From Alienimonas californiensis (GTDB lineage Bacteria > Planctomycetota > Planctomycetia > Planctomycetales > Planctomycetaceae): a stretch of 64,000 nt of DNA. The stretch lies in assembly GCF_007743815.1 (NCBI RefSeq), contig NZ_CP036265.1, forward strand, positions 1,018,501 to 1,082,500. The letters run 5' to 3'. Position numbers and translations under genes: made by a program. Numbering within the stretch: position 1 is the first letter of the stretch; every line of letters begins with the position of its first letter. The notes beneath the pieces are model-generated. The model was not told the origin of the DNA. It made no database searches and was given only the letters and a program-made list of their open reading frames with translations. Shown here piece by piece: positions 17,199-54,944 of the stretch.

Positions 17199-17225
17199 CG
17201 CCGGCGATCAGCGGAGAAATCACGA

Positions 17226-17256
17226 CCGGGGGCGTCCGCGCGACGGACGCCCCCGG
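17226..17256 (+). terminator. Terminator hairpin after M1 peptidase
   Basis: The 13-base arms CCGGGGGCGTCCG and CGGACGCCCCCGG enclose CGCGA. It starts 28 bases after the stop codon. Confidence 0.75.
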
Positions 17257-17742
17257 CTTCATTTCCGCGTTTTCAATTCGGCGACGAACGGCTGCCGCTC
17301 GACGCCCGGCTGCGTTTTGCCGGTCCGTTCTGTCGCCGGTCGTGCGGCGCCGCGGCGGGGGGCGAGACGCAGCGACGCGACAGGGTCGCGGCCCACGTCA
17401 GGCGAATGTCCAGGGGAAAGGCGAGGTGAGAAAGTTTGAGCGCAGCCAAAGCGCTTTGCCCGTCGGCCACGGGAGCCGAGACCGCCGCGGCCGCGCCGGC
17501 GGCACGTAACGGGCCGTCCGACGGACCGAGGCGACGGCCGCAACGCCCTTCCGCGCAGGCGTGCGGCCCCGACGCGTTCAACAGGCGAGGAAGTCCGTGA
17601 CCGTCCCGCTCTGAGTCATAAAACTCCGTCGGTCCCCGCGGATCGGCAAACCGATCCGGCGCGGCTCGCCGTCCCGCACGACCGCTCACGTCTGTGTCTG
17701 CGATTGCGTTTCCGCCCCCCGTCCGGCGGGGCGCTCTATAAC
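17257..17742. other. Gene-poor gap of about 490 bases
   Basis: Short open frames exist on the minus strand (for example one ending at 17259), but they have Arg/Pro-rich, shadow-like compositions and no recognisable domain or start signal. I see no RNA gene. It is the space between the convergent M1 peptidase and the antiporter operon end. Confidence 0.5.
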
Positions 17743-19626
17743 TCAGGCGAACAGGACGACCGTTGCGGTCCACAGGGCCGCCGCGATTGCGGCGGCGAGG
17801 GAGGCGGGCACCAGCTGCGTTTTGACGTGGTCCATCAGATCGCAGCCGGTGGTCATGGCGCTGAGGATGGTGGTGTCGGAGATCGGGGAGCACTGGTCGC
17901 CGAAGACGCTGCCGTTCAGCACGGTGGCGAAGCAGATGGACATAAAAAGCTCCGGGTTGGTCACGTCCCCGGCGCCGGCGACCTGCCAGGCCAACGGCAT
18001 CGCCAGCGGGAAGGCGACGGCGAACGTGCCCCAACTCGTGCCGGTGGAGAAGGCGATCACCATCGTGATGAGTTGCAGCGCGACCGGCAGGGCCGCGGCG
18101 GGGATTCGCTCGCCCAACGACTCCACCAGATAGACGCCCGCCCCGACCTCCCGGCTGACGCCCCCCACCGTGACGGCCAGCATTAACACGACCGACGCCA
18201 GCACCACGCCTTTCAACCCGTCGCCGACGCCTTCGATCAGGGCGCCCAGACTCATTCCTTTAAACAGTGCCGTTAAGGCGGAGGCGAGGAACGCCGCCCC
18301 GAACGCCCAGTTGACCTTCGGCGACCCGGTCGCGACGAACGTGCCCACGGCGACGCCCACCAGCAGGAGGAACGGCACGAAAAACTCCAGCACGTGCGGC
18401 CGATACCCCGGCGGCACCCGCGTCGCGGCGAGTTCCTCGGAACTCAGCGGCGAGACGCCCGGGGCGTCCAGCTGCCCCGTGGTGCGGGCCCGCTGCATCG
18501 CCGCCCGGATCCCCCTCCCCGAGAACCGCGTATAATCAAGGCTCAGCAGAAACGTGCCGGCGATCGCGAGCAGGGCGTAGAAGCTGAACGGCACGCTTTT
18601 AAAGAAAAAGGCGATGCGGTCGTCCTCGGTCGCCAGGAAGCTGACGCCGGGCACGAAGATCAACGCCTGCACGTAAACCGGCCAGGCGTTGAACGCCAGC
18701 ACCGCCGCGATCGGCGAGGCGGTCGAGTCGACAATATACGATAGCTCCTCATGGCTGACCCGCTCCCGGTCGGCGACCGGCTTCACGATCGTGCCCACCA
18801 GCACGACGCTGACCGTGCCGCCCTGAAAGAACAGCACGCCCAGCAGCCAGGCGACCAGCTTGGCGGTCCGCGGCCCCCGCACGAAGCGCCGGGTCATGAA
18901 TTCGGCGAAGGCCTGCGCCGCCCCGGTTCGGGACCAGACGCCCATCAACCCGCCCAGCAGCCAGAGATAAAGCAGCAGAACCGTGGCGGCGCTTTTGCTG
19001 GCCAGGCTGGGCAGCAGCACCGCGTCCGTAATATCGAACCGCCCCAGCATCAACGCCCCGACGACCACCGACCCGAGCAGCGCCGACAGCGGCTCTTTCG
19101 TCAATAAACACAGCCCCACGGCGATCGCCGCCGGCAGCAACGACCACAGGCCGTAGTGTCGCCCCGGTTCCAGCAGGGAATACCGCACCCCGGCGGCGTC
19201 GCCTTCGCCGCTGGACTCCGCCTTAGACTCCACGCTGGTCTCCACGACCCACTGCCGCTCGAGCGGCGGCTCGCCGGAAAGATCCGCCAGCGCCTCCGCC
19301 CGCAACGGCGACGTGTCGTAGGGCACGACCTCCCCAACGGGCAGTTCCTCGCCGCTGTAGCGATACGCCAGTTCGCCGGATTCGTTTTGATAGACGTTGA
19401 AGGTCGTCTTCTGCTCCCGCCATTGCGGAGCGACCTGCGAGTAGACGAAGACCCCGGCGGCGAGGCCGCCGAGCAGCACGACCGCGGCGAGCAGGTGCGA
19501 CGGCCGAAGCCGTTTCGCGACGGCGGCGGGAACGGCCGGCGGCTCGACCGGCCCGACGGCCGCCTCCTCGACGACCGGCACCGGCTTCGCCGCGGCATCG
19601 CCCGGGGGCGGGTGCGTCCGTGTCAT
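17743..19626 (-). CDS. NhaC-like Na+/H+ antiporter family transporter
   Basis: A polytopic transporter of 627 residues. After a Pro-rich cytoplasmic start there is one helix ([19 protein letters not shown]), an extracytoplasmic domain of about 100 residues, then ten or more helices. Typical NhaC features are [56 protein letters not shown] and [21 protein letters not shown] at 19626 overlaps the upstream stop as ATGA, which decides the start; the frame is open further upstream only as a shadow. The family exchanges Na+ or H+ and some members move organic anions. Its operon with glutamate-related enzymes suggests amino-acid or peptide uptake, which is inference. Confidence 0.88.
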
Positions 19627-20456
19627 TCCTCCTCCTGCGAGGCGGCTTCGATAAAGGCGGCGAGCAGCTTCCGCTGCAATGGGTCCTCGGGCGCCAGCTT
19701 TTCCGGGTGCCATTGCACGCCGATGAGGAAGCGGTCCGGGTCGGTCGTTTCCGTGGCCTCGATCACGCCGTCCGGGCTGCGGGCGACGACGCGGAGGCCC
19801 TTCCCCACGTCGCGGACCGCCTGATGGTGGTACGAATTGACCTCCAGCGACGTGCAGCCGAAGACCTTCGCCAGGCGGGAGTCCGGTTCGAGGGTCACCG
19901 GGTGCGTGACGTCCCGGTGCACGACGCCGAATTCCGAGGGGATGTCCTGCACCAGCGAGCCGCCGTGGGCGACGTTCACCCACTGGCTGCCCAGGCAGAT
20001 GCCGAGCAACGGCTTGTCGGTGCGTTCGATCCAGGCGGAGATCAACGCCTTTTCGAATTGATAGCGGTCGTCGTCCAGAACCTTGGTGGTCGGGTGCGGC
20101 GCCTCGCCCCACTCCGACGGCGGGATGTCCGCCCCGCCGGGCATGAGCAGGCCGTCCAGCAATTCGAGATAGTCCTCGACGGCGTCCGGGCTGCCGTCGA
20201 CGTTCGGCAGGACGACGGGAACCCCGCCGGCGTCGCGGATGGCCCGGACGTAGGTGTCGCCCGTCAAGCTGGCGATGCCGATGACCGGCCGGCGGACGGG
20301 GCGCTCCGCGGGCGTCGCGGCGGCGTCGGCGACGGGCAGACGCTCCGGGGCGAGGCGGAGCGACTGGGCCCCGGCGGTGGAGAGCCAGCCCGCCGGTCCG
20401 CCGAGGCCGCCCACGAGGACCAGGCCCAGGGCCGCCAGGAACGTGCGTCTCGTCAT
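19623..20456 (-). CDS. C26-family (gamma-glutamyl) hydrolase, exported
   Basis: A class I glutamine amidotransferase-fold hydrolase of the peptidase C26/PuuD type, 277 residues. The N-terminus ([17 protein letters not shown]) is a twin-arginine or Sec-like signal. The nucleophile elbow is GICLGSQ (Cys at about residue 140), and the His/Glu pair is in QWHPEK near residue 250. YHHQAV is the usual preceding loop. The ATG at 20456 shares its A with the upstream TGA (TGATG), so translation is coupled; a TTG one codon earlier is less likely. The family cleaves gamma-glutamyl bonds, so a gamma-D-glutamyl peptide would suit this operon. Confidence 0.88.
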
Positions 20457-21529
20457 CAAAACCTCGGGGCGGAAAGAGTGACTGCGACGTCGGAGAGGGC
20501 CGGCGTCGGATCATAAAGCTCCACGCCGTTGCCGGGGCGGTCCGGCAGGCGGACGACGCCCCGATCGACGACGGCCCCGTCGGCGGCGTCGCGGGCCAGC
20601 AGCGTCGCCCCGTCGAGGTCGGCGTAGTCCAACAGCGGCAAGGTTTGAGCCGCCGCGGAAATGCCGACGGAGCTTTCGATCATGCAGCCGACCATCGTTT
20701 TCATCCCCAGCGTGCGGGCCCGCCGCAGCATCCGCACCGCCGGGGTCAGGCCGCCGCACTTCGACAGTTTGACGTTAATGCCGTGGAACGAACCGCGGCA
20801 GCGGTCCACGTCGGCTTCGACCCGGCAGCTTTCGTCCGCAATGACCGGCAGGGCGGAGCCTTCGAACACGCGGCGGTGATCGGCGGCCGGGGCGTCGGCC
20901 GGCAGGGGCTGTTCGAGGAACTCGACGCCGAGTTCTTTGAAAGCGTGCGAGTTCTTGATCGTCTCCTCGACCGTCCAGCCGCAATTGGCGTCGACGCGGA
21001 AGGGGGCCGTCGTTTCCTCTCGGAGCTGACGGACGATCTCCACGTCCCGGTCCGTGCCGAGTTTGATTTTATAGACCGGCCAGCCGGGCCGTTCCCGGAG
21101 TTTCGCGACCATCCGCTCGACGGAGTCGATGCCGACGGTGTAGCTGGAGGGCGGCACGCGCTCCCACCGCAGGCCGAGCAGTTCGTACGTCCGCCGGCCG
21201 GCGAGCTTGCCGTACAGGTCGTGGGCGGCGGCGTCGATCGCGGCGAGGACGAACGCCTCCCCCTCCAAGGCCGGGCGGAGCCGGTCCCACAGGCCGGCGG
21301 GGTCGCCGAACTGATAACTCTCGATCAGCGGCGTACAGCGTTCGACGGCGGCGGTCATCGCATCGAGCGTGACGCCGTAATAGGCGTGCTCCGTCGCCTC
21401 GCCGTACCCGCACACGCCGTCGCGCTCCAGCGTGACGATCAGCGACCGCTGACAGGTTTTCGTGCCCCGGGCGATCGTGAAGGGATGCTCCAGGGGAAGT
21501 TCGACGCGATGGAGTCGGACGGTCGTCAA
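20456..21529 (-). CDS. dgcA: Enolase-superfamily epimerase, DgcA / dipeptide epimerase type
   Basis: A 357-residue enolase-superfamily enzyme of the muconate-lactonizing subgroup. Visible active-site elements are YKIKLGTD (catalytic KxK), [23 protein letters not shown] (metal ligands Asp/Glu/Asp) and NVKLSKCGG (second catalytic Lys). Such enzymes are annotated as L-Ala-D/L-Glu epimerases; those next to DUF1611 genes have been reported as N-acetyl-D-glutamate racemase DgcA. The start is TTG at 21529, three bases past the upstream stop, with GGAG six bases before it. Which substrate this one uses is not decidable from sequence. Confidence 0.85.
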
Positions 21530-21530
21530 T

Positions 21531-22649
21531 TTATACTCCGATCACGTCCCGCCGCAGCTCGGCCACGGCGTCCGCGAGGATGCCGGCGCCGTGGCGGTAG
21601 ACGTCGCAGACCGGCAGGCCAAGCTCGGCTTGAATGCGATCGCGTTCGGCCTCGGCCTCCTCCGCGGAGACCTTGCTGCCGTTGATCGCCACGCCGATCA
21701 CCCGGCAGGGCTGCCGCAGGGAGGCGAGGGTTTCGTACACGTCGATCAGCCGGCGGTGCGGCGGGATCTCGAAGCCGTCCAGCCCCTTCACCCGGGTGCG
21801 GCCGACCTCGTAGCAGTAAATCAGCCCGTGCGGGGCGCAGCCGTGCAGCAGGCCGGTGGTCACGCCGGAGAAACTGGGGTGGGAGACGCTGCCCTGCCCC
21901 TCGATCAGCAGCACGTCGTGGGCTTCGTTCCGCCGGACCAGCACCTCGGCGGCGCCGTTGACGAAGTCGGAGACGACGCAGTCGATCGGCACGCCCTCGC
22001 CGGCGATCATGATGCCGGTCTGGCCGGTGGCGAGGAACTTGGCGTCCACGCCGCGGCGGACGAGTTCGCGCTCGAGTTCCAGCGTGACGACCATCTTGCC
22101 GACGCTGCAATCGTGCCCGACCGCGTGCACCCGCAGGCACCCGGGGCGGAAGGGGAGGCCGGTGGAGGTATCACGTTCGCGGTTCTTGCGGACGTCGATC
22201 AGCGCCGCCCCGCTCTCGGCGGCGAGTGCGGCGAACTCCGGATCCTCGCCGAGGAAGTCATGCATGCCGGAGACGACGTCCGCCCCGCGCCGCAGGGCGT
22301 CGCAGATCAGGCTCCGCCACGCCTCCGGCAGGCGGCCGCCGGGCGCCGCGATGCCGAGGAACACGGCGTCCGCGTTCAACCCCTCCAGGCCGGCGACGAC
22401 CGGCGTGTCGCCCCCGACGCCGAACAGGTCCGCGGCCGTCTTGCCCGCCTCGCCGGCGTCGAGCACGGCGACGACGTCGTCCGGCCGGTACCGGAGCAGG
22501 CTCATCGCGGTCTTGGCGTAGAACGGCCGGGAGAACCCGTCCGTCAGCAGGGCGATGCGGCGATAGTCCGCCACGCCCCGGGGAGACGCCCCGCCGGCGT
22601 CCGGCGGGCCGGGAGGGGTCGGGGGCGGGACAGACGGCGCGGCGGTCAC
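21531..22649 (-). CDS. dgcN: DUF1611 protein, DgcN type (D-glutamate N-acetyltransferase family)
   Basis: A DUF1611 protein of about 372 residues. An N-terminal Rossmann-like domain ([38 protein letters not shown]) is followed by a P-loop-type domain with [36 protein letters not shown] and [16 protein letters not shown]1611 members next to DgcA have been reported to N-acetylate D-glutamate as the first step of D-glutamate catabolism. GTG at 22649 is listed as the start. A longer frame begins with GTG at 22706 but touches the palindrome at 22707-22724 and adds a Pro/Arg-rich stretch. It is the first gene of the four-gene operon. Confidence 0.82.
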
Positions 22650-22706
22650 GGGAGGTCTCGGGCGGGCGGAACGCCGATTCAAAATACGGCCTTTCGGTGC
22701 CGGCAC

Positions 22707-24763: not shown

Positions 24764-26281
24764 ATGACCCGCCCCCCCCTCCTCCGCCTGGCCGCCTCGG
24801 CCGTCGTCGCCGGTCTGTTCGCGGCGCCGGCCTGGGCGCAGGACGCCGGCCGGGCGACGCTGGACGGCCCGCTCGCCGCTCCGCCGCCCGTCCCGACGGG
24901 CGGCGACCTGCCCGTGCCGGCGGACATCCCCGAACTGCACGCCGCCGACGACGACCCGATCGGCCGGCGGTTCGTGGAGCCGCCGCCGGTGCCGGAGGCC
25001 CCGCGGGGGTTGGGAACCGTCGTCGAGCGGGAGCAGAACGCCGCGTTCGCCGGCGCCCCGTTGACGCTCGACGAGGCGTTGGAACTGGCCGCCGCGAACA
25101 ACCCCACGCTCGTGCAGGCCCGCGCCCAGGTGCAGGGCACGCTGGGGTTGGCGGTCGAGGCCGGGCTGTGGCCGAACCCCGTCTTCCGCTACGTCGGCGA
25201 GCAGATCGGCGTGGACCGCGAGGGGGAGACGGACACGCCCGGTGAGTTCCAGGGTGCGACGCTCACGCAGGAGTTCGTCACCGCGGACAAACGGGACCTC
25301 AGCCGGGCGAAGTTCCTGCAACGCACCCGGGTTGCGGAGTGGGCGGCCGTCTCCCAGCAGTGGCGGGTCTGCAACGACGTGCGAGTTCACTTCTATCAGG
25401 CGCTGGGGGCGAAGGAGACCGTCGCGATCCGCGAGGACCTGTTGAAGGCCGCCGAGGACGCCGTCGTCACCGCCCGGGAGCAGTGGAACCTCGGTCAGGC
25501 GACGCGGTCCGACCTGCACCTCGCCAACGTCGCGTTGCAGGAGGCCCGGTTGAATCTGCTGATGGCGGAGAACGACTATCTGGAGCAGTTCCAGACGCTC
25601 GCCGCGCTGATCGGCCTGCCGCTGGAGACCGGGGCGGTGGTCGGCGAACTGGACGGCGAATCCGCGGAAATCGACTTCGAACAGGTGTATCGCGAGTATC
25701 TGGACGAGGCCCCGCAGGTGATCATGGCCCGGCAGAAGCTGCGCGAGGATCAGATCACGCTCAAGCGAGAGCTGGTCGAGCCGATCCCGAACATCTTCGT
25801 CGAGGCGGGCAGCGGCTATAACTTCGAGGCACTGGAGACGACCGGCACCGCCAGCGTGCGGTTCGATATTCCCATTTTCGACCGCAATCAAGGGAACATC
25901 CGCCGGGCCGAGGCCGACTTGGTCCGGCAGCGCCGCGAGATTCAGCGGACGGAAATGCTGCTCCGCCGCGAGTTAGCGACGCAGTACCGCCGCTACCTCA
26001 CCGCCCGGCAGCACGTGGAGCAGTTCGCCGAGGTGATCCTGCCGGAGGCCCGGGCGGCGTATAAGAACCAGCTCGACGCCTACGCGGAGGACCGCCAGCA
26101 GTGGCCGGACGTGTTGACGGTGCAGAGCAGCTACTTCGACCTGCGCCAGCGTTATATCGGGCACCTCGTGGCGCTGCGAACCAGCGAAACGCTGATCCGG
26201 GGCTACCTGCTCCACGACGGCCTGAACGTGCCCGATCCGCTGCCGCCCGGGCATCTGGACGTGACCGCCCAGCCGCGATAA
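24764..26281 (+). CDS. TolC-family outer-membrane channel (CusC/CzcC-like)
   Basis: A 505-residue outer-membrane channel protein with a signal peptide (AASAVVAGLFAAPAWAQ). Two OEP repeats are visible: LDEALELAAANNPTLVQARA near residue 105, and a second long helical half from about 300 with FDIPIFDRNQGNIRRAEADL, the characteristic second-repeat opening. Channels with this pattern form the outer part of CusCBA/CzcCBA metal efflux pumps. No RND or membrane-fusion gene is next to it, so it either pairs with distant partners or serves another exporter. It is immediately upstream of the multicopper oxidase and a CsoR-type operator. Confidence 0.85.
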   Translation: MTRPPLLRLAASAVVAGLFAAPAWAQDAGRATLDGPLAAPPPVPTGGDLPVPADIPELHAADDDPIGRRFVEPPPVPEAPRGLGTVVEREQNAAFAGAPLTLDEALELAAANNPTLVQARAQVQGTLGLAVEAGLWPNPVFRYVGEQIGVDREGETDTPGEFQGATLTQEFVTADKRDLSRAKFLQRTRVAEWAAVSQQWRVCNDVRVHFYQALGAKETVAIREDLLKAAEDAVVTAREQWNLGQATRSDLHLANVALQEARLNLLMAENDYLEQFQTLAALIGLPLETGAVVGELDGESAEIDFEQVYREYLDEAPQVIMARQKLREDQITLKRELVEPIPNIFVEAGSGYNFEALETTGTASVRFDIPIFDRNQGNIRRAEADLVRQRREIQRTEMLLRRELATQYRRYLTARQHVEQFAEVILPEARAAYKNQLDAYAEDRQQWPDVLTVQSSYFDLRQRYIGHLVALRTSETLIRGYLLHDGLNVPDPLPPGHLDVTAQPR

Positions 26282-26315
26282 TCCGGCCGCCGGTCCGGAA
26301 CTCGTGCCCCAAAGA

Positions 26316-26330
26316 TACCCTTCCGGGGTA
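26316..26330 (+). promoter_or_regulatory. CsoR-type operator candidate upstream of the multicopper oxidase
   Basis: TACCC-TTCCG-GGGTA, a perfect 5-5-5 inverted repeat ending 52 bases before the oxidase start. A same-spaced element precedes csoR (one mismatch) and the Csp-like gene (perfect). Confidence 0.7.
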
Positions 26331-26382
26331 CACTCGGTCCGGGATACACTGCGACTGCTTGCTCCCCCGTCGAAGTGCCTTG

Positions 26383-27909
26383 ATGTCCGCCGCCGAAGCT
26401 CGTCGTTCGTTCCTCAAAGCCGGAACCGCGGCCGCGGCCGGTGCGTTCGCCGCGAACGCCGTCCGCCCCGCCGCCGCCCAGGAGAATCCGCGGCAGGACC
26501 CCACGCCCGCCCCCGGCGCCCCGACCGATCCCCCCGGCGGCGCCCAGCCGCGGGGCGAGAACGACGTGCGGGCGGACTACGACGGCTTTTCCCGCTACCA
26601 GCCCAGCCGCGGGAACGATCCCGATTCGAAATGGTATATCGGCAAGGAGGTCCCGGGCTTCCGCAGGGGCGAGGAGGGGCCGGCCCCGTTCATCGCCCCG
26701 GACGTGGAGAAGCTGCCGTACACGATGGAGAACGGCTGGAAGGTGTTTCGCCTGAATTGCACGCCGGTCCGGCGTGAGTTCCTGCCCGGCTATTACATCG
26801 ACGTGTACGGCTTCAACGGGTCGATGCCCGGCCCGACGATCGAGGCGACGCAGGGGGACAAAATCCGGGTGATCGTGAAGAACGACCTGCCCGAGCCGAC
26901 CTCCGTGCATTGGCACGGGCTGGAACTGAGCGTGCAGGACGACGGCGCCTCCCACCTCACCCAGAACATGATCGAGCCGGGGAAGGAGTACGTCTACGAA
27001 CTGCACCCGCACGAAGAGGGGACGTTCTTTTACCACTCCCACGTCGCCATGCAGGAGACGTTCGGGATGGTGGGGTGGTTTATTATTCACCCGCGAAAGC
27101 CGTTCGACCCGCCGGTGGATCGCGACTTCGGGCTGATCTTTCAGAACTTCCGCATCGACCCGATGACCACCGTGGTCGACAGCTGGGGGATGGATTTTAA
27201 CTGGCACACGATCAACGGCCGCAGCGGGCCCTACACCACCCCGCTGGTCTGCCGGCACGGGGAGCGGGTGCGGATCCGAATTATGGACTTCAGTCCGATC
27301 CAGCATCACCCCATTCATCTGCACGGGCACACCTTCTGGGTGACGGGGCACGAGGGGGCGCGGGTTCCCAAGACCGCTTGGATTCCGCGGAATACGGAAC
27401 TCATCGCCGTGGCCCAGGCGTCGACCCTGGAGTTAATCGCCAATAACCCCGGCGACTGGGCGCTGCACTGCCATATGACGCATCACATGATGAACCATAT
27501 GGTGCAGCACGTCGGCCCGCGGCTGCGGGGGCAGGCCGATACGGAGCGGTATACCGCGAACCTGGAGACCCGCCCCGCGGTGGATTTGAACTCCAAGGCC
27601 CTCGGCGAGGTTCCCCCCGGCTACCCGCAGATGATGCAGGGGATGAAAATGGACCCGCGGGCGATGGAGAAGGTCTGGAACCGCCGCGAAATGAAGGGGA
27701 TGCGGGCGACCGCCCCCAAAACAATTCACGGCTTGTTCACCGCCCTGCGCGTGCTGCCGGACGACCTGTATCGGCTGGTGATGGAAAGCGACGAGCCGGT
27801 CGAAAAGGGCGCCGTCTTCGCCGAGATCGTCCGCCGCTTCGGCGACTACGGTCGCTACCAGTGGGCGCCCATGATGAACATGAACGGCGGCATGAACGGC
27901 GGCGAGTAG
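26383..27909 (+). CDS. Tat-exported multicopper oxidase
   Basis: A multicopper oxidase of 508 residues (laccase/CueO type). The N-terminus has a twin-arginine signal (ARRSFLKAGTAAAAGAF). Copper sites are visible in order: SVHWHGLEL, FFYHSHVAM, HHPIHLHGHTFWV and ALHCHMTHHMMNHM, which supply the trinuclear cluster and the type 1 Cys/His. After the last cluster the protein is Met-rich (MMQGMKMDPRAME, MMNMNGGMNGG), a feature of enzymes that handle Cu(I). It likely oxidises Cu(I) to the less toxic Cu(II) outside the cytoplasm. The only ATG before the signal at 26383 was used. Confidence 0.92.
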   Translation: MSAAEARRSFLKAGTAAAAGAFAANAVRPAAAQENPRQDPTPAPGAPTDPPGGAQPRGENDVRADYDGFSRYQPSRGNDPDSKWYIGKEVPGFRRGEEGPAPFIAPDVEKLPYTMENGWKVFRLNCTPVRREFLPGYYIDVYGFNGSMPGPTIEATQGDKIRVIVKNDLPEPTSVHWHGLELSVQDDGASHLTQNMIEPGKEYVYELHPHEEGTFFYHSHVAMQETFGMVGWFIIHPRKPFDPPVDRDFGLIFQNFRIDPMTTVVDSWGMDFNWHTINGRSGPYTTPLVCRHGERVRIRIMDFSPIQHHPIHLHGHTFWVTGHEGARVPKTAWIPRNTELIAVAQASTLELIANNPGDWALHCHMTHHMMNHMVQHVGPRLRGQADTERYTANLETRPAVDLNSKALGEVPPGYPQMMQGMKMDPRAMEKVWNRREMKGMRATAPKTIHGLFTALRVLPDDLYRLVMESDEPVEKGAVFAEIVRRFGDYGRYQWAPMMNMNGGMNGGE

Positions 27910-27978
27910 CGGGTCCCCGGGGACGTCGCCCCGCAGCGGGACAGGCCGGAGCGCGACGCCTCCGCCCCTCGCCGGGGA

Positions 27979-27993
27979 TACCCCCAGCCGGTA
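27979..27993 (+). promoter_or_regulatory. CsoR-type operator candidate upstream of csoR
   Basis: TACCC-CCAGC-CGGTA matches TACCC-N5-GGGTA with one mismatch. It is 75 bases upstream of the csoR start, the same distance as in front of the Csp-like gene. Confidence 0.5.
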
Positions 27994-28068
27994 GGATGGA
28001 AACCGACCGGTCTCCGGGTCGGCGTCCGTTCCTCCCTGAGCCCGGCCCGTCGGCCGTTTGCGACTTCC

Positions 28069-28362
28069 GTGCACCTCGACCGCGATCAGAAAGAGGCCCT
28101 CCGCAAGCGTCTCCGCCGGGCCGAGGGCCAAGTCGCGGCGGTGGGGCGGATGATCGAGGAGGACAAGTACTGCGTGGACGTGCTGATGCAGGTTCGGGCG
28201 GCGATGGCGGCCCTGGGCAAGGTGGGCCAGATCGTGCTGGAGAACCATCTGGACACCTGCGTCTCCGCCGCCTTCCAAGCCGACGACGACGCGGAACGCC
28301 AGGCGAAGATTCGCGAGCTGATGGACGTCTTCGCCCAATACGGCAACTTCGGCACGCGTTGA
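28069..28362 (+). CDS. csoR: CsoR-family copper-sensing repressor
   Basis: A 97-residue DUF156/CsoR protein, an all-helical repressor that releases DNA on binding Cu(I). The ligand set is intact: Cys35 (DKYCVDVL), His60 and Cys64 (LENHLDTC), the C-H-C spacing of copper CsoRs rather than that of formaldehyde or nickel relatives. The N-terminal LRRAEGQVAAVGRMIEED is the family's basic helix. The start is GTG at 28069. It sits between the copper oxidase and the Csp-like gene, each with a similar operator in front. Confidence 0.92.
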   Translation: MHLDRDQKEALRKRLRRAEGQVAAVGRMIEEDKYCVDVLMQVRAAMAALGKVGQIVLENHLDTCVSAAFQADDDAERQAKIRELMDVFAQYGNFGTR

Positions 28363-28442
28363 CCGCCGGGCGCCGGGCGGTTCGAGCACCAGGCGGTCCG
28401 GCCGGGTTCCCCCCATTCGCCGGCCCCGCCTTCCACGGTTCG

Positions 28443-28457
28443 TACCCTCTCGGGGTA
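28443..28457 (+). promoter_or_regulatory. CsoR-type operator candidate upstream of the Csp-like gene
   Basis: TACCC-TCTCG-GGGTA, perfect 5-5-5 inverted repeat, 75 bases before the start codon. Confidence 0.7.
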
Positions 28458-28532
28458 TCCGTAGAACGAGACGACGCGCCGGGTCGGCCGGCGCGGCGTA
28501 CCCGTTCCCCCCAGCGACGACGAGGACCGACG

Positions 28533-28856
28533 ATGAGCGACGCGAAGATGAAGGAGTGCATCGACACCTGCCAGGAGTGCCACCGCACCTGCCTGGACCA
28601 CTTTGTGAACACCTGTCTGGAGAAAGGCGGCGAGCACGTCGAGAAGGAGCACGTCAAGCTGATGCTGGACTGCATTCAGATCTGCGCGACCTGCACGGAC
28701 TTCATGATCCGCGGCAGCGAGTTGCACGGCCTCGTCTGCCGGGCCTGCAGCGAAGTGTGCAAGCAGTGCGCGGACAGCTGCGAGAAGGTCGGCATGAGCG
28801 ACTGCGCCGCCCAGTGCCGCAAGTGCGCGGAAACCTGCGGCGCGATGGCCGCCTGA
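28533..28856 (+). CDS. Four-helix Cys-rich copper storage protein (Csp-like, DUF326)
   Basis: A 107-residue protein with 17 Cys in CxxC, CxxxC and CxxCxxxC spacings (for example CIDTCQECHRTC, CIQICATC, CRACSEVCKQCADSC, CRKCAETC), spread over predicted helices. This is the Csp/four-helix-bundle copper-binding family, whose Cys line the inside of the bundle and store many Cu(I) ions. No signal peptide is present, so it should be a cytosolic Csp3-type. The neighbouring csoR and operator suggest copper induction. It is 170 bases downstream of csoR. Confidence 0.92.
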   Translation: MSDAKMKECIDTCQECHRTCLDHFVNTCLEKGGEHVEKEHVKLMLDCIQICATCTDFMIRGSELHGLVCRACSEVCKQCADSCEKVGMSDCAAQCRKCAETCGAMAA

Positions 28857-53747: not shown

Positions 53748-54944
53748 ATGAACCTCACCGCCCTGCTCCTCGCCGCCGCCTTCGCCCCGCCTGCCGGCGA
53801 CGACCGGGGACCGATCACGGTTTCGCCGGAGGCGGCGGCTCTGCATCGGACGTTGTTGGTGGCGGACGGGCACAACGATCTGCCGTGGGCGATCCGTACG
53901 GACTTCGGCTCCGACTTCTCGAAGTTCGACCTCGCCGCCGGCGTGCCCGCCCTGCACACGGACATCCCCCGCCTGCGGGCCGGCGGGGTGGGGCTGCAGT
54001 TCTGGAGCGTCTACGTCCCCGCCGCGCAACAGGGCGCCGCGACGGCGGTCTTCGAACAGATCGCGATCGTCAACGAAATGGTCCGCCGGCACCCGGAGAC
54101 CTTCGCCCTCTGCCGCACCGCCGAGGAGGTCGAGGCCGCCCGGGCCGAGGGGAAGATCGCCTCCCTCATCGGGATGGAGGGCGGCCACGCCCTCGAAAAC
54201 TCGATCGGCCTGCTCACGAAGTTCCGGGAGGCCGGGGCGGCCTATCTGACGCTGACGCACTCCGCCACGCTGGACTGGGCCGACAGCGCCACCGACGAAC
54301 CTAAAAGCGACGGCCTGAGCCCGTTCGGGGTCGAGGTGGTCCGGGAGATGAACCGGGTCGGCATGCTGGTGGACCTCTCGCACGTCTCCGCGGCGACGAT
54401 GCACGACGCTCTGGACGTGACGGCGGCCCCGGTCATTTTCAGTCACTCCTCCGCGCGGGCCGTGGCGAATCACCCCCGCAACGTGCCGGACGACGTGTTG
54501 CGGCGCCTCAGGGAGAACGGCGGCGTGGTGATGGCGAACTTTTATAGCGCCTTCGTCGTCCCCGAATTCGCCGCGGAGCAGGCCGGGATCTACGAGATCC
54601 GCCGGCAGGCCGCGGCCCAACTCCCGGACGACGAGGCCGCCCGCGACCGCCTGGAGCGGGACTGGCGACAAGAGCATCCCGTCCGCCCCGGCACGATCCA
54701 CGACGTACTGGACCACCTCGATCATTTAGCGAAGATCGCGGGGCCGGAGCATGTGGGCCTGGGCGGCGACTACGACGGCGTCTCCACGCTCCCGGCGGGC
54801 CTGGAGGACGTCTCCGCCTACCCCCGCCTCACCCAGGGCCTGCTGGACCGCGGTTATAGCGAGGACCAAATCCGCGGCATCATGGGCGAGAACGCCCTGC
54901 GGGTCTTGCGGGCGGCGCTGGCCGTCGGTGAGCGAGCGGAGTGA
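53748..54944 (+). CDS. M19 membrane dipeptidase, secreted
   Basis: A 398-residue renal-dipeptidase-type enzyme. Signal peptide (ALLLAAAFAPPAG), then the metal ligands in order: DGHNDLPWAI (HxD), GMEGGHALEN (Glu), DLSHVSAATM and SHSSARAVANHPRN (two His), GGDYDGVSTLP. These enzymes hydrolyse dipeptides, often with tolerance for D-residues at the second position. ATG at 53748 is adopted. Confidence 0.93.
   Translation: MNLTALLLAAAFAPPAGDDRGPITVSPEAAALHRTLLVADGHNDLPWAIRTDFGSDFSKFDLAAGVPALHTDIPRLRAGGVGLQFWSVYVPAAQQGAATAVFEQIAIVNEMVRRHPETFALCRTAEEVEAARAEGKIASLIGMEGGHALENSIGLLTKFREAGAAYLTLTHSATLDWADSATDEPKSDGLSPFGVEVVREMNRVGMLVDLSHVSAATMHDALDVTAAPVIFSHSSARAVANHPRNVPDDVLRRLRENGGVVMANFYSAFVVPEFAAEQAGIYEIRRQAAAQLPDDEAARDRLERDWRQEHPVRPGTIHDVLDHLDHLAKIAGPEHVGLGGDYDGVSTLPAGLEDVSAYPRLTQGLLDRGYSEDQIRGIMGENALRVLRAALAVGERAE

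Follow-up and report, generated by a model that had tools for sequence, protein, structure and literature searches.

What is the role of an operon that joins two genes resembling those of D-glutamate catabolism to an exported peptidase and a membrane carrier? We examined this question in a window of 64,000 nucleotides, the whole stretch of DNA analysed here, from Alienimonas californiensis (GCF_007743815.1, contig NZ_CP036265.1, positions 1,018,501-1,082,500 of the forward strand). The four genes form a tight minus-strand operon whose ends touch or overlap, and encode a DUF1611 protein, an enolase-superfamily enzyme resembling DgcA and dipeptide epimerases, an exported C26 peptidase and an NhaC-family carrier. 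The DgcN-DgcA D-glutamate catabolic pathway was reportedly first presented by Yu et al. (2023, ISME J). We lean towards reading the operon as a scavenging module for gamma-linked D-glutamate, the main sources of which are stem peptides and poly-gamma-glutamate. The C26 protein, or gamma-glutamyltranspeptidase (GGT) in relatives, would act outside the inner membrane, freeing glutamate from gamma-glutamyl peptides or polymers, and the carrier would import the released glutamate or small gamma-glutamyl compounds. The DUF1611 protein would then N-acetylate D-glutamate, as DgcN does, and the enolase-superfamily enzyme would convert N-acetyl-D-glutamate to N-acetyl-L-glutamate, which could feed arginine synthesis or be deacylated. 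ArgJ, with an ArgC match alongside, is present in the window genome and is a possible sink. What we observed are gene order, protein families, conserved linkage and catalytic motifs; each of the reactions, the substrate, the direction of transport and the fate of N-acetyl-L-glutamate are inferred.

All Pfam families of the four operon genes scored above cut-off. The DUF1611 protein (P0004; PF17396 and PF07755) is encoded at 21531-22706 and has 391 amino acids if it starts at GTG 22706; this start is uncertain, with GTG 22649 or a later codon as alternatives, and the conserved domain begins near residue 48. The racemase/epimerase (P0003; PF02746 and PF13378) lies at 20456-21529, the C26 protein (P0002; PF07722, 197.8 bits) at 19623-20459 and the carrier (P0001; 627 amino acids; PF03553, 108.5 bits) at 17743-19626. 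An earlier note on this DNA had described four genes in one direction with touching or overlapping starts, and the layout was borne out: the likelier C26 start, ATG 20456, overlaps the epimerase stop (TGATG), and the carrier start overlaps the C26 stop (ATGA). Its spacing of three bases between the DUF1611 TAA and the epimerase TTG has to be corrected to one base (TAA-A-TTG). From ATG 20456 the C26 protein begins MTRRTFLA, which by eye is Tat-like.

We compared the DUF1611 protein with solved proteins. The results showed that the closest by sequence is 7xrj, 'N-acetyltransferase DgcN-25328' (E 1.8e-65), which was also the first Foldseek match (E 2.1e-31), with agreement over most of the length. 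The window protein has the DUF1611_N and DUF1611_C domains and the DgcN fold, and shares with 7xrj the motifs DCSVGKM, ATGQTG and EGQGS, whose residues vary little or not at all across 23 sequences, made up of the window protein and 22 relatives. No other DUF1611 match occurs in the window genome. We also collected 66 DUF1611 loci of named organisms from a protein scan, with flanks of up to 10 kb, several of them shorter. The epimerase gene, which adjoins DUF1611 in the window, was found within 400 bp of it in 48 of these loci, on the same strand in 47; the remainder comprised ten loci with ArgJ and no epimerase, seven with neither (several on short contigs) and one with the epimerase further off.

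One DUF1611 clade of 11 loci has its gene 3' of ArgJ (L040, L046, L047, L052, L054, L057, L060, L062, L066, L070 and L079; L numbers denote loci). ArgC precedes ArgJ in seven of them, the other four beginning near or inside ArgJ, and the epimerase is missing from ten and present only in L054. An AcpS-type phosphopantetheinyl transferase stands between ArgJ and DUF1611, as checked with Pfam in L047, L057 and L079. The DUF1611 protein of this clade is a candidate N-acetylglutamate-forming enzyme of arginine synthesis, and its place beside ArgJ fits N-acetylglutamate chemistry.

Is the carrier a lasting partner of DUF1611? The window protein belongs to the wider family PF03553 only, scoring 39.9 bits on TIGR00931 (cut-off 370), and a sequence search for solved relatives returned just four unrelated proteins at E 0.026 or worse. 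The named-organism loci had suggested that C26 and NhaC were mere neighbours, a view overturned for NhaC by a class-wide search of 397 genomes, among them that of the window. Neighbouring loci in this set were scored only for homologues of the chosen queries, and other genes there may be missed. NhaC orthologues (E <= 1e-80) occurred in 25 genomes and DUF1611 (E <= 1e-60) in 94. Seventeen genomes had a strong NhaC match (E <= 1e-160, a threshold chosen after seeing the list, in a gap from 6e-164 to 1e-124), and in 15 of them DUF1611 lay 0.45-8.2 kb away; nine of the ten genera had the linkage in at least one genome. The exceptions were the genome G001, without DUF1611, and G397, with DUF1611 on another contig. 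Leaving out G001, the 15 linked cases among 16 genomes holding both genes compare with a chance expectation of 0.06, a figure that treats the genomes as independent though they are related (10 genera, one of them present five times).

That the genes are chance neighbours, with NhaC maintaining pH or sodium balance and C26 belonging to another pathway, therefore has little left to recommend it, given the linkage statistics of this NhaC subfamily and the differing layouts of its clusters, and we consider it highly improbable. It draws on the commonness of the families, P0001 having matches (E <= 0.001) in 28 of 61 family genomes and P0002 in 58 of 61, weak glutamine-amidotransferase relatives included, and on the weaker NhaC orthologues, which are mostly unlinked to DUF1611.

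The NhaC-DUF1611 clusters showed four layouts in three families, which led us to reject an explanation confined to a single genus. In layout I (the window, G003 and G388), DUF1611, epimerase, C26 and NhaC stand with a XylR-like regulator; in G388 a GATase-like/beta-lactamase fusion is inserted, and in G003 the cluster also holds GGT and the glutamate symporter GltS. In layout II (G013, G131, G124, G086, G083, G258 and G313), DUF1611-epimerase is accompanied by a VOC protein and NhaC-GGT by a sigma-54 regulator; G124 has no epimerase beside DUF1611. Layout III (G331 and G218) holds NhaC, an S66 L,D-carboxypeptidase, GGT, a second NhaC-family carrier, a class A beta-lactamase/S11 protein, the epimerase and DUF1611. 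The beta-lactamase/S11 protein is an S11-type D,D-carboxypeptidase; the Pfam scan covered that of G331 alone, which also has a peptidoglycan-binding domain. G397 carries the second half of this layout together with an M19 dipeptidase, its NhaC orthologue being on another contig. Layout IV is DUF1611-epimerase-NhaC in G387 and G316 and DUF1611-NhaC in G339, with no other tested family nearby. Two further observations concern the carriers. In L202, L205 and L210 a second, distant NhaC-family carrier directly follows the class A beta-lactamase/S11 protein beside the epimerase, and in G001 (L143, 7456-9012) a fusion of GATase-like and N-formylglutamate amidohydrolase domains lies beside the NhaC orthologue.

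We then considered the hydrolase. C26 or GGT was found near NhaC in 12 of the 17 genomes and seven of the ten genera: C26 in the window's genus and two others, GGT elsewhere. In ten genomes the midpoints of GGT and NhaC were no more than 10 kb apart, with 0.06 expected, each genome having 0-2 GGT copies (20 in all 17). The window C26 protein carries GICLG and QWHPE, which we take to be the nucleophile and His-Glu motifs, and both are kept in the G003 and G388 orthologues; on the PuuD gamma-Glu-GABA hydrolase model (NF008471) it scored 100.9 bits, below the cut-off of 266. The window genome has a single GGT, which lies 3.97 Mb from the operon along the contig (roughly 1.5 Mb should the contig be circular), and its role may therefore be taken there by C26. 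C26 orthologues of at least 60% identity occurred in six of the 397 genomes, the window's included, and three of these lie in such clusters; two weaker rows (G293 and G312) are outside the six. C26 is thus no fixed part of the cluster. The conservation of NhaC and C26 beside DUF1611, on which the earlier note had let its proposal depend, holds for NhaC and in part fails for C26, which is confined to three clusters with GGT elsewhere. An N-formylglutamate amidohydrolase domain was rejected as a fixed deacylase, only the GATase-like half being conserved (L197, L198 and L201). In G365 an asparaginase-2-type gene adjoins the DUF1611-epimerase pair instead, as in five of the 66 named-organism loci. 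A plasmid of Agrobacterium fabrum (L239) holds a dipeptide epimerase, a major facilitator superfamily carrier, a C26-type hydrolase and a CapA-family gene together, a hint of a gamma-glutamate link.

The substrate of the epimerase is the least certain part of this reading. The window enzyme has the catalytic and binding motifs KxK, DAN, EQP, ADE, K and DxD, which occur in DgcA too and are not specific to L-Ala-D/L-Glu epimerase (AEE). The Arg of the FxISRG motif, which presumably fits the glutamate side chain, is conserved in 64 of 66 rows, and the motif comparison found no residue telling N-acetyl-D-glutamate from a dipeptide substrate. Profile score and the DxD motif were both rejected as means of separating DgcA from AEE. 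The window enzyme scored 156.6 bits on the AEE model (NF011708; cut-off 343). Citrobacter YcjG, an AEE, passes the DgcA model (NF042940) with 430 against a cut-off of 400, and YcjG and Vibrio DgcA each pass both models; the database labels DgcA and AEE therefore need care, as present models do not cleanly separate them. The DgcA proteins of Vibrio and Pantoea labelled by PGAP share 30-32% identity with the window enzyme and 48-49% with E. coli AEE. In a tree of 83 rows, a DgcA/AEE clade (10 rows, support 100/99) was separate from the window enzyme, and the NhaC-linked epimerases took four separate positions, L210 being counted as linked only through its distant second NhaC. The window genome has one other epimerase homologue, a weak one at 32%.

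These results bear on a muropeptide route, in which the enolase-superfamily enzyme would be an L-Ala-D/L-Glu epimerase with fragments of stem peptides as its substrates, and DUF1611 would serve some other function. The solved protein closest to the window enzyme is 3iji (41% identity), a dipeptide epimerase from Bacteroides whose structure was determined with L-Ala-D-Glu; on the non-discriminating DgcA model it reaches 225 bits against 232 for the window enzyme. Halorussus carries NlpC/P60-DUF1611-epimerase, and L202 and L205 hold peptidoglycan-peptide enzymes. Set against this are the frequent DgcN-like partner within 400 bp in named organisms and the absence of NlpC/P60, an MpaA peptidase or a peptide ATP-binding cassette (ABC) transporter among the four window operon genes, as judged by Pfam. 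In addition, GGT would be expected to yield free glutamate, needing no dipeptide epimerase. We regard this route as rather unlikely.

Does the glutamate come from wall debris? With the same chemistry, the natural substrate could be poly-gamma-glutamate, a mixed D/L polymer that C26 or GGT would depolymerise. In peptidoglycan, L-Ala occupies the amine of D-glutamate and should thereby keep GGT from acting. GGTs are described, in the part of the source available to us, as exohydrolases of this polymer, freeing glutamate that serves as a source of carbon and nitrogen, and the polymer can hold D- and L-glutamate (PMC4928254); this known use favours the polymer. The L,D- and D,D-carboxypeptidases of layout III favour stem peptides, and the G397 cluster, with its D,D-carboxypeptidase and M19 dipeptidase, points the same way. 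Our search for poly-gamma-glutamate depolymerases covered GGT. We judge that the polymer is unlikely to be the food in place of wall debris.

A biosynthetic role would have the module supply wall D-glutamate, by import or by the epimerase running in reverse towards N-acetyl-D-glutamate, in a cell without a MurI-type racemase. A search with PF01177 (Asp/Glu racemase, MurI type) gave no match at E <= 0.001 in the window genome, compared with matches in 10 of 14 control genomes, and a metagenome paper, in the text available, indicates that Planctomycetia probably recycle D-amino acids (PMC12363236). DUF1611 is nevertheless present in less than a quarter of the class genomes, and G001, of the same genus, lacks both core genes, so a general source of D-glutamate is hard to see in it; we hold this role to be very unlikely. 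Returning to scavenging, we offer only tentatively a complete outside-to-inside route for gamma-linked D-glutamate in planctomycetes that would have been assembled more than once, with the DUF1611-epimerase pair at its centre, exchangeable hydrolases (C26 and GGT) and an NhaC-family D-glutamate importer, whose cargo could also supply the wall in the window genome, where no MurI-type racemase was detected.

Several observations weigh against the scavenging module. The best NCBIfam model for the DUF1611 protein, DgcN (NF041892), gave 277.9 bits against a cut-off of 480, and the epimerase reached 232.3 bits of the 400 required by the DgcA model. In the tree, its clade consists of planctomycete and verrucomicrobial rows and one Persicobacter row, with the Bacteroides dipeptide epimerase as sister, while E. 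coli AEE nests among DgcA-labelled rows. NhaC was found in none of the 66 named-organism loci, and a close orthologue stands near DUF1611 in only 15 of the 94 class genomes with DUF1611. None of eight weaker NhaC rows was seen linked: G157, G386 and G166 have DUF1611 on another contig (in G157 NhaC is at a contig end, where a linkage could be missed), and G029, G148, G077, G106 and G138 have no DUF1611 match. G001 has NhaC without DUF1611 or epimerase. The other three close C26 orthologues (G140, G365 and G178) are outside clusters, G387 and G316 have the carrier but lack GGT genome-wide and show no hydrolase of those tested alongside it, and no deacylase is fixed in the cluster.

Despite its score, the DgcN-like assignment of the DUF1611 protein makes a good case on sequence and fold, and the case for DgcA identity of the epimerase is weak. 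The match to the D-glutamate pathway claimed earlier is accordingly upheld by the resemblance of DUF1611 to 7xrj and loosened by the two low scores and the place of the epimerase outside the DgcA clade. Of the proposed extended scavenging module, the recurrence of NhaC and of C26 or GGT, and of stem-peptide enzymes in some clusters, has stood, but the counts in the named-organism loci and in the class speak against a general module. The operon is a conserved, probably functional extension of the known DgcN-DgcA pathway in some planctomycetes.

Upstream, a XylR-like regulator (P0005; PBP-like domain PF13377 and AraC helix-turn-helix PF12833; 22763-23962, plus strand) is divergent from the operon and 56 bp from GTG 22706; its homologues share the DUF1611 locus in other planctomycetes. 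A consensus scan of the operon region for promoters and terminators found no sigma-70-like promoter. It placed a terminator-like hairpin of 15 pairs at 17225-17257, 3' of the operon on the minus strand and also usable on the plus strand for the convergent gene; the four such sites in the downstream stretch are near background (shuffled mean 3.0). Beside the regulator, 24764-28856 (plus strand) encodes an outer-membrane efflux protein, a multicopper oxidase and a Cys-rich protein, a possible copper cluster; the Cys-rich protein is copper-storage-like by eye, and the open reading frame scanned had no Pfam match at 1e-5. An M19 membrane dipeptidase is encoded at 53823-54926 (plus strand), at a distance of about 31 kb.

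The D-glutamate of wall debris and poly-gamma-glutamate forms a pool of organic nitrogen that is hard to use. If our reading is right, a module pairing release, uptake and conversion names a carrier and hydrolases for D-glutamate, gives NhaC-family proteins a testable substrate and places some planctomycetes among D-glutamate users. Literature searches, with most subscription papers outside their reach, found no work joining planctomycetes, D-glutamate, N-acetyltransferase and gamma-glutamyl, none joining DUF1611 and dipeptide epimerase and, within the records searched, none with DUF1611 in title or abstract; for NhaC, gamma-glutamyl and D-glutamate, the accessible records gave only work on Pasteurellaceae.

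Finally, we compared the operon with known systems. It resembles the DgcN-DgcA pathway (PMC12363236, PMC10845958 and PMC11747546, as far as their accessible text goes) in the acetyltransferase fold and motifs of DUF1611, the adjoining enolase-superfamily enzyme and a gene order identical to that of dgcN-dgcA in Vibrio and Pantoea. It differs in proteins far below the family cut-offs, an epimerase of another clade, the added NhaC carrier and C26, and the lack of the ABC importer of Pantoea or the D-amino-acid transaminase of Vibrio. With AEE/YcjG and 3iji the epimerase shares fold, Lys pair, metal ligands and DxD motif, and the ISRG/IARG arginine is common to it, AEE and DgcA but absent from 3iji; unlike those systems, the operon has no murein peptide amidase or NlpC/P60 and has a DUF1611 partner. 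The carrier matches the NhaC-family antiporters (PF03553), but it falls far short of the NhaC, ArcD and Tet(35) models and is linked to glutamate-type genes. Bacillus use of poly-gamma-glutamate through GGT, as described in the available part of PMC4928254, likewise involves exported gamma-glutamyl hydrolysis expected to release glutamate, whereas here C26 or GGT clusters with DUF1611, epimerase and NhaC.

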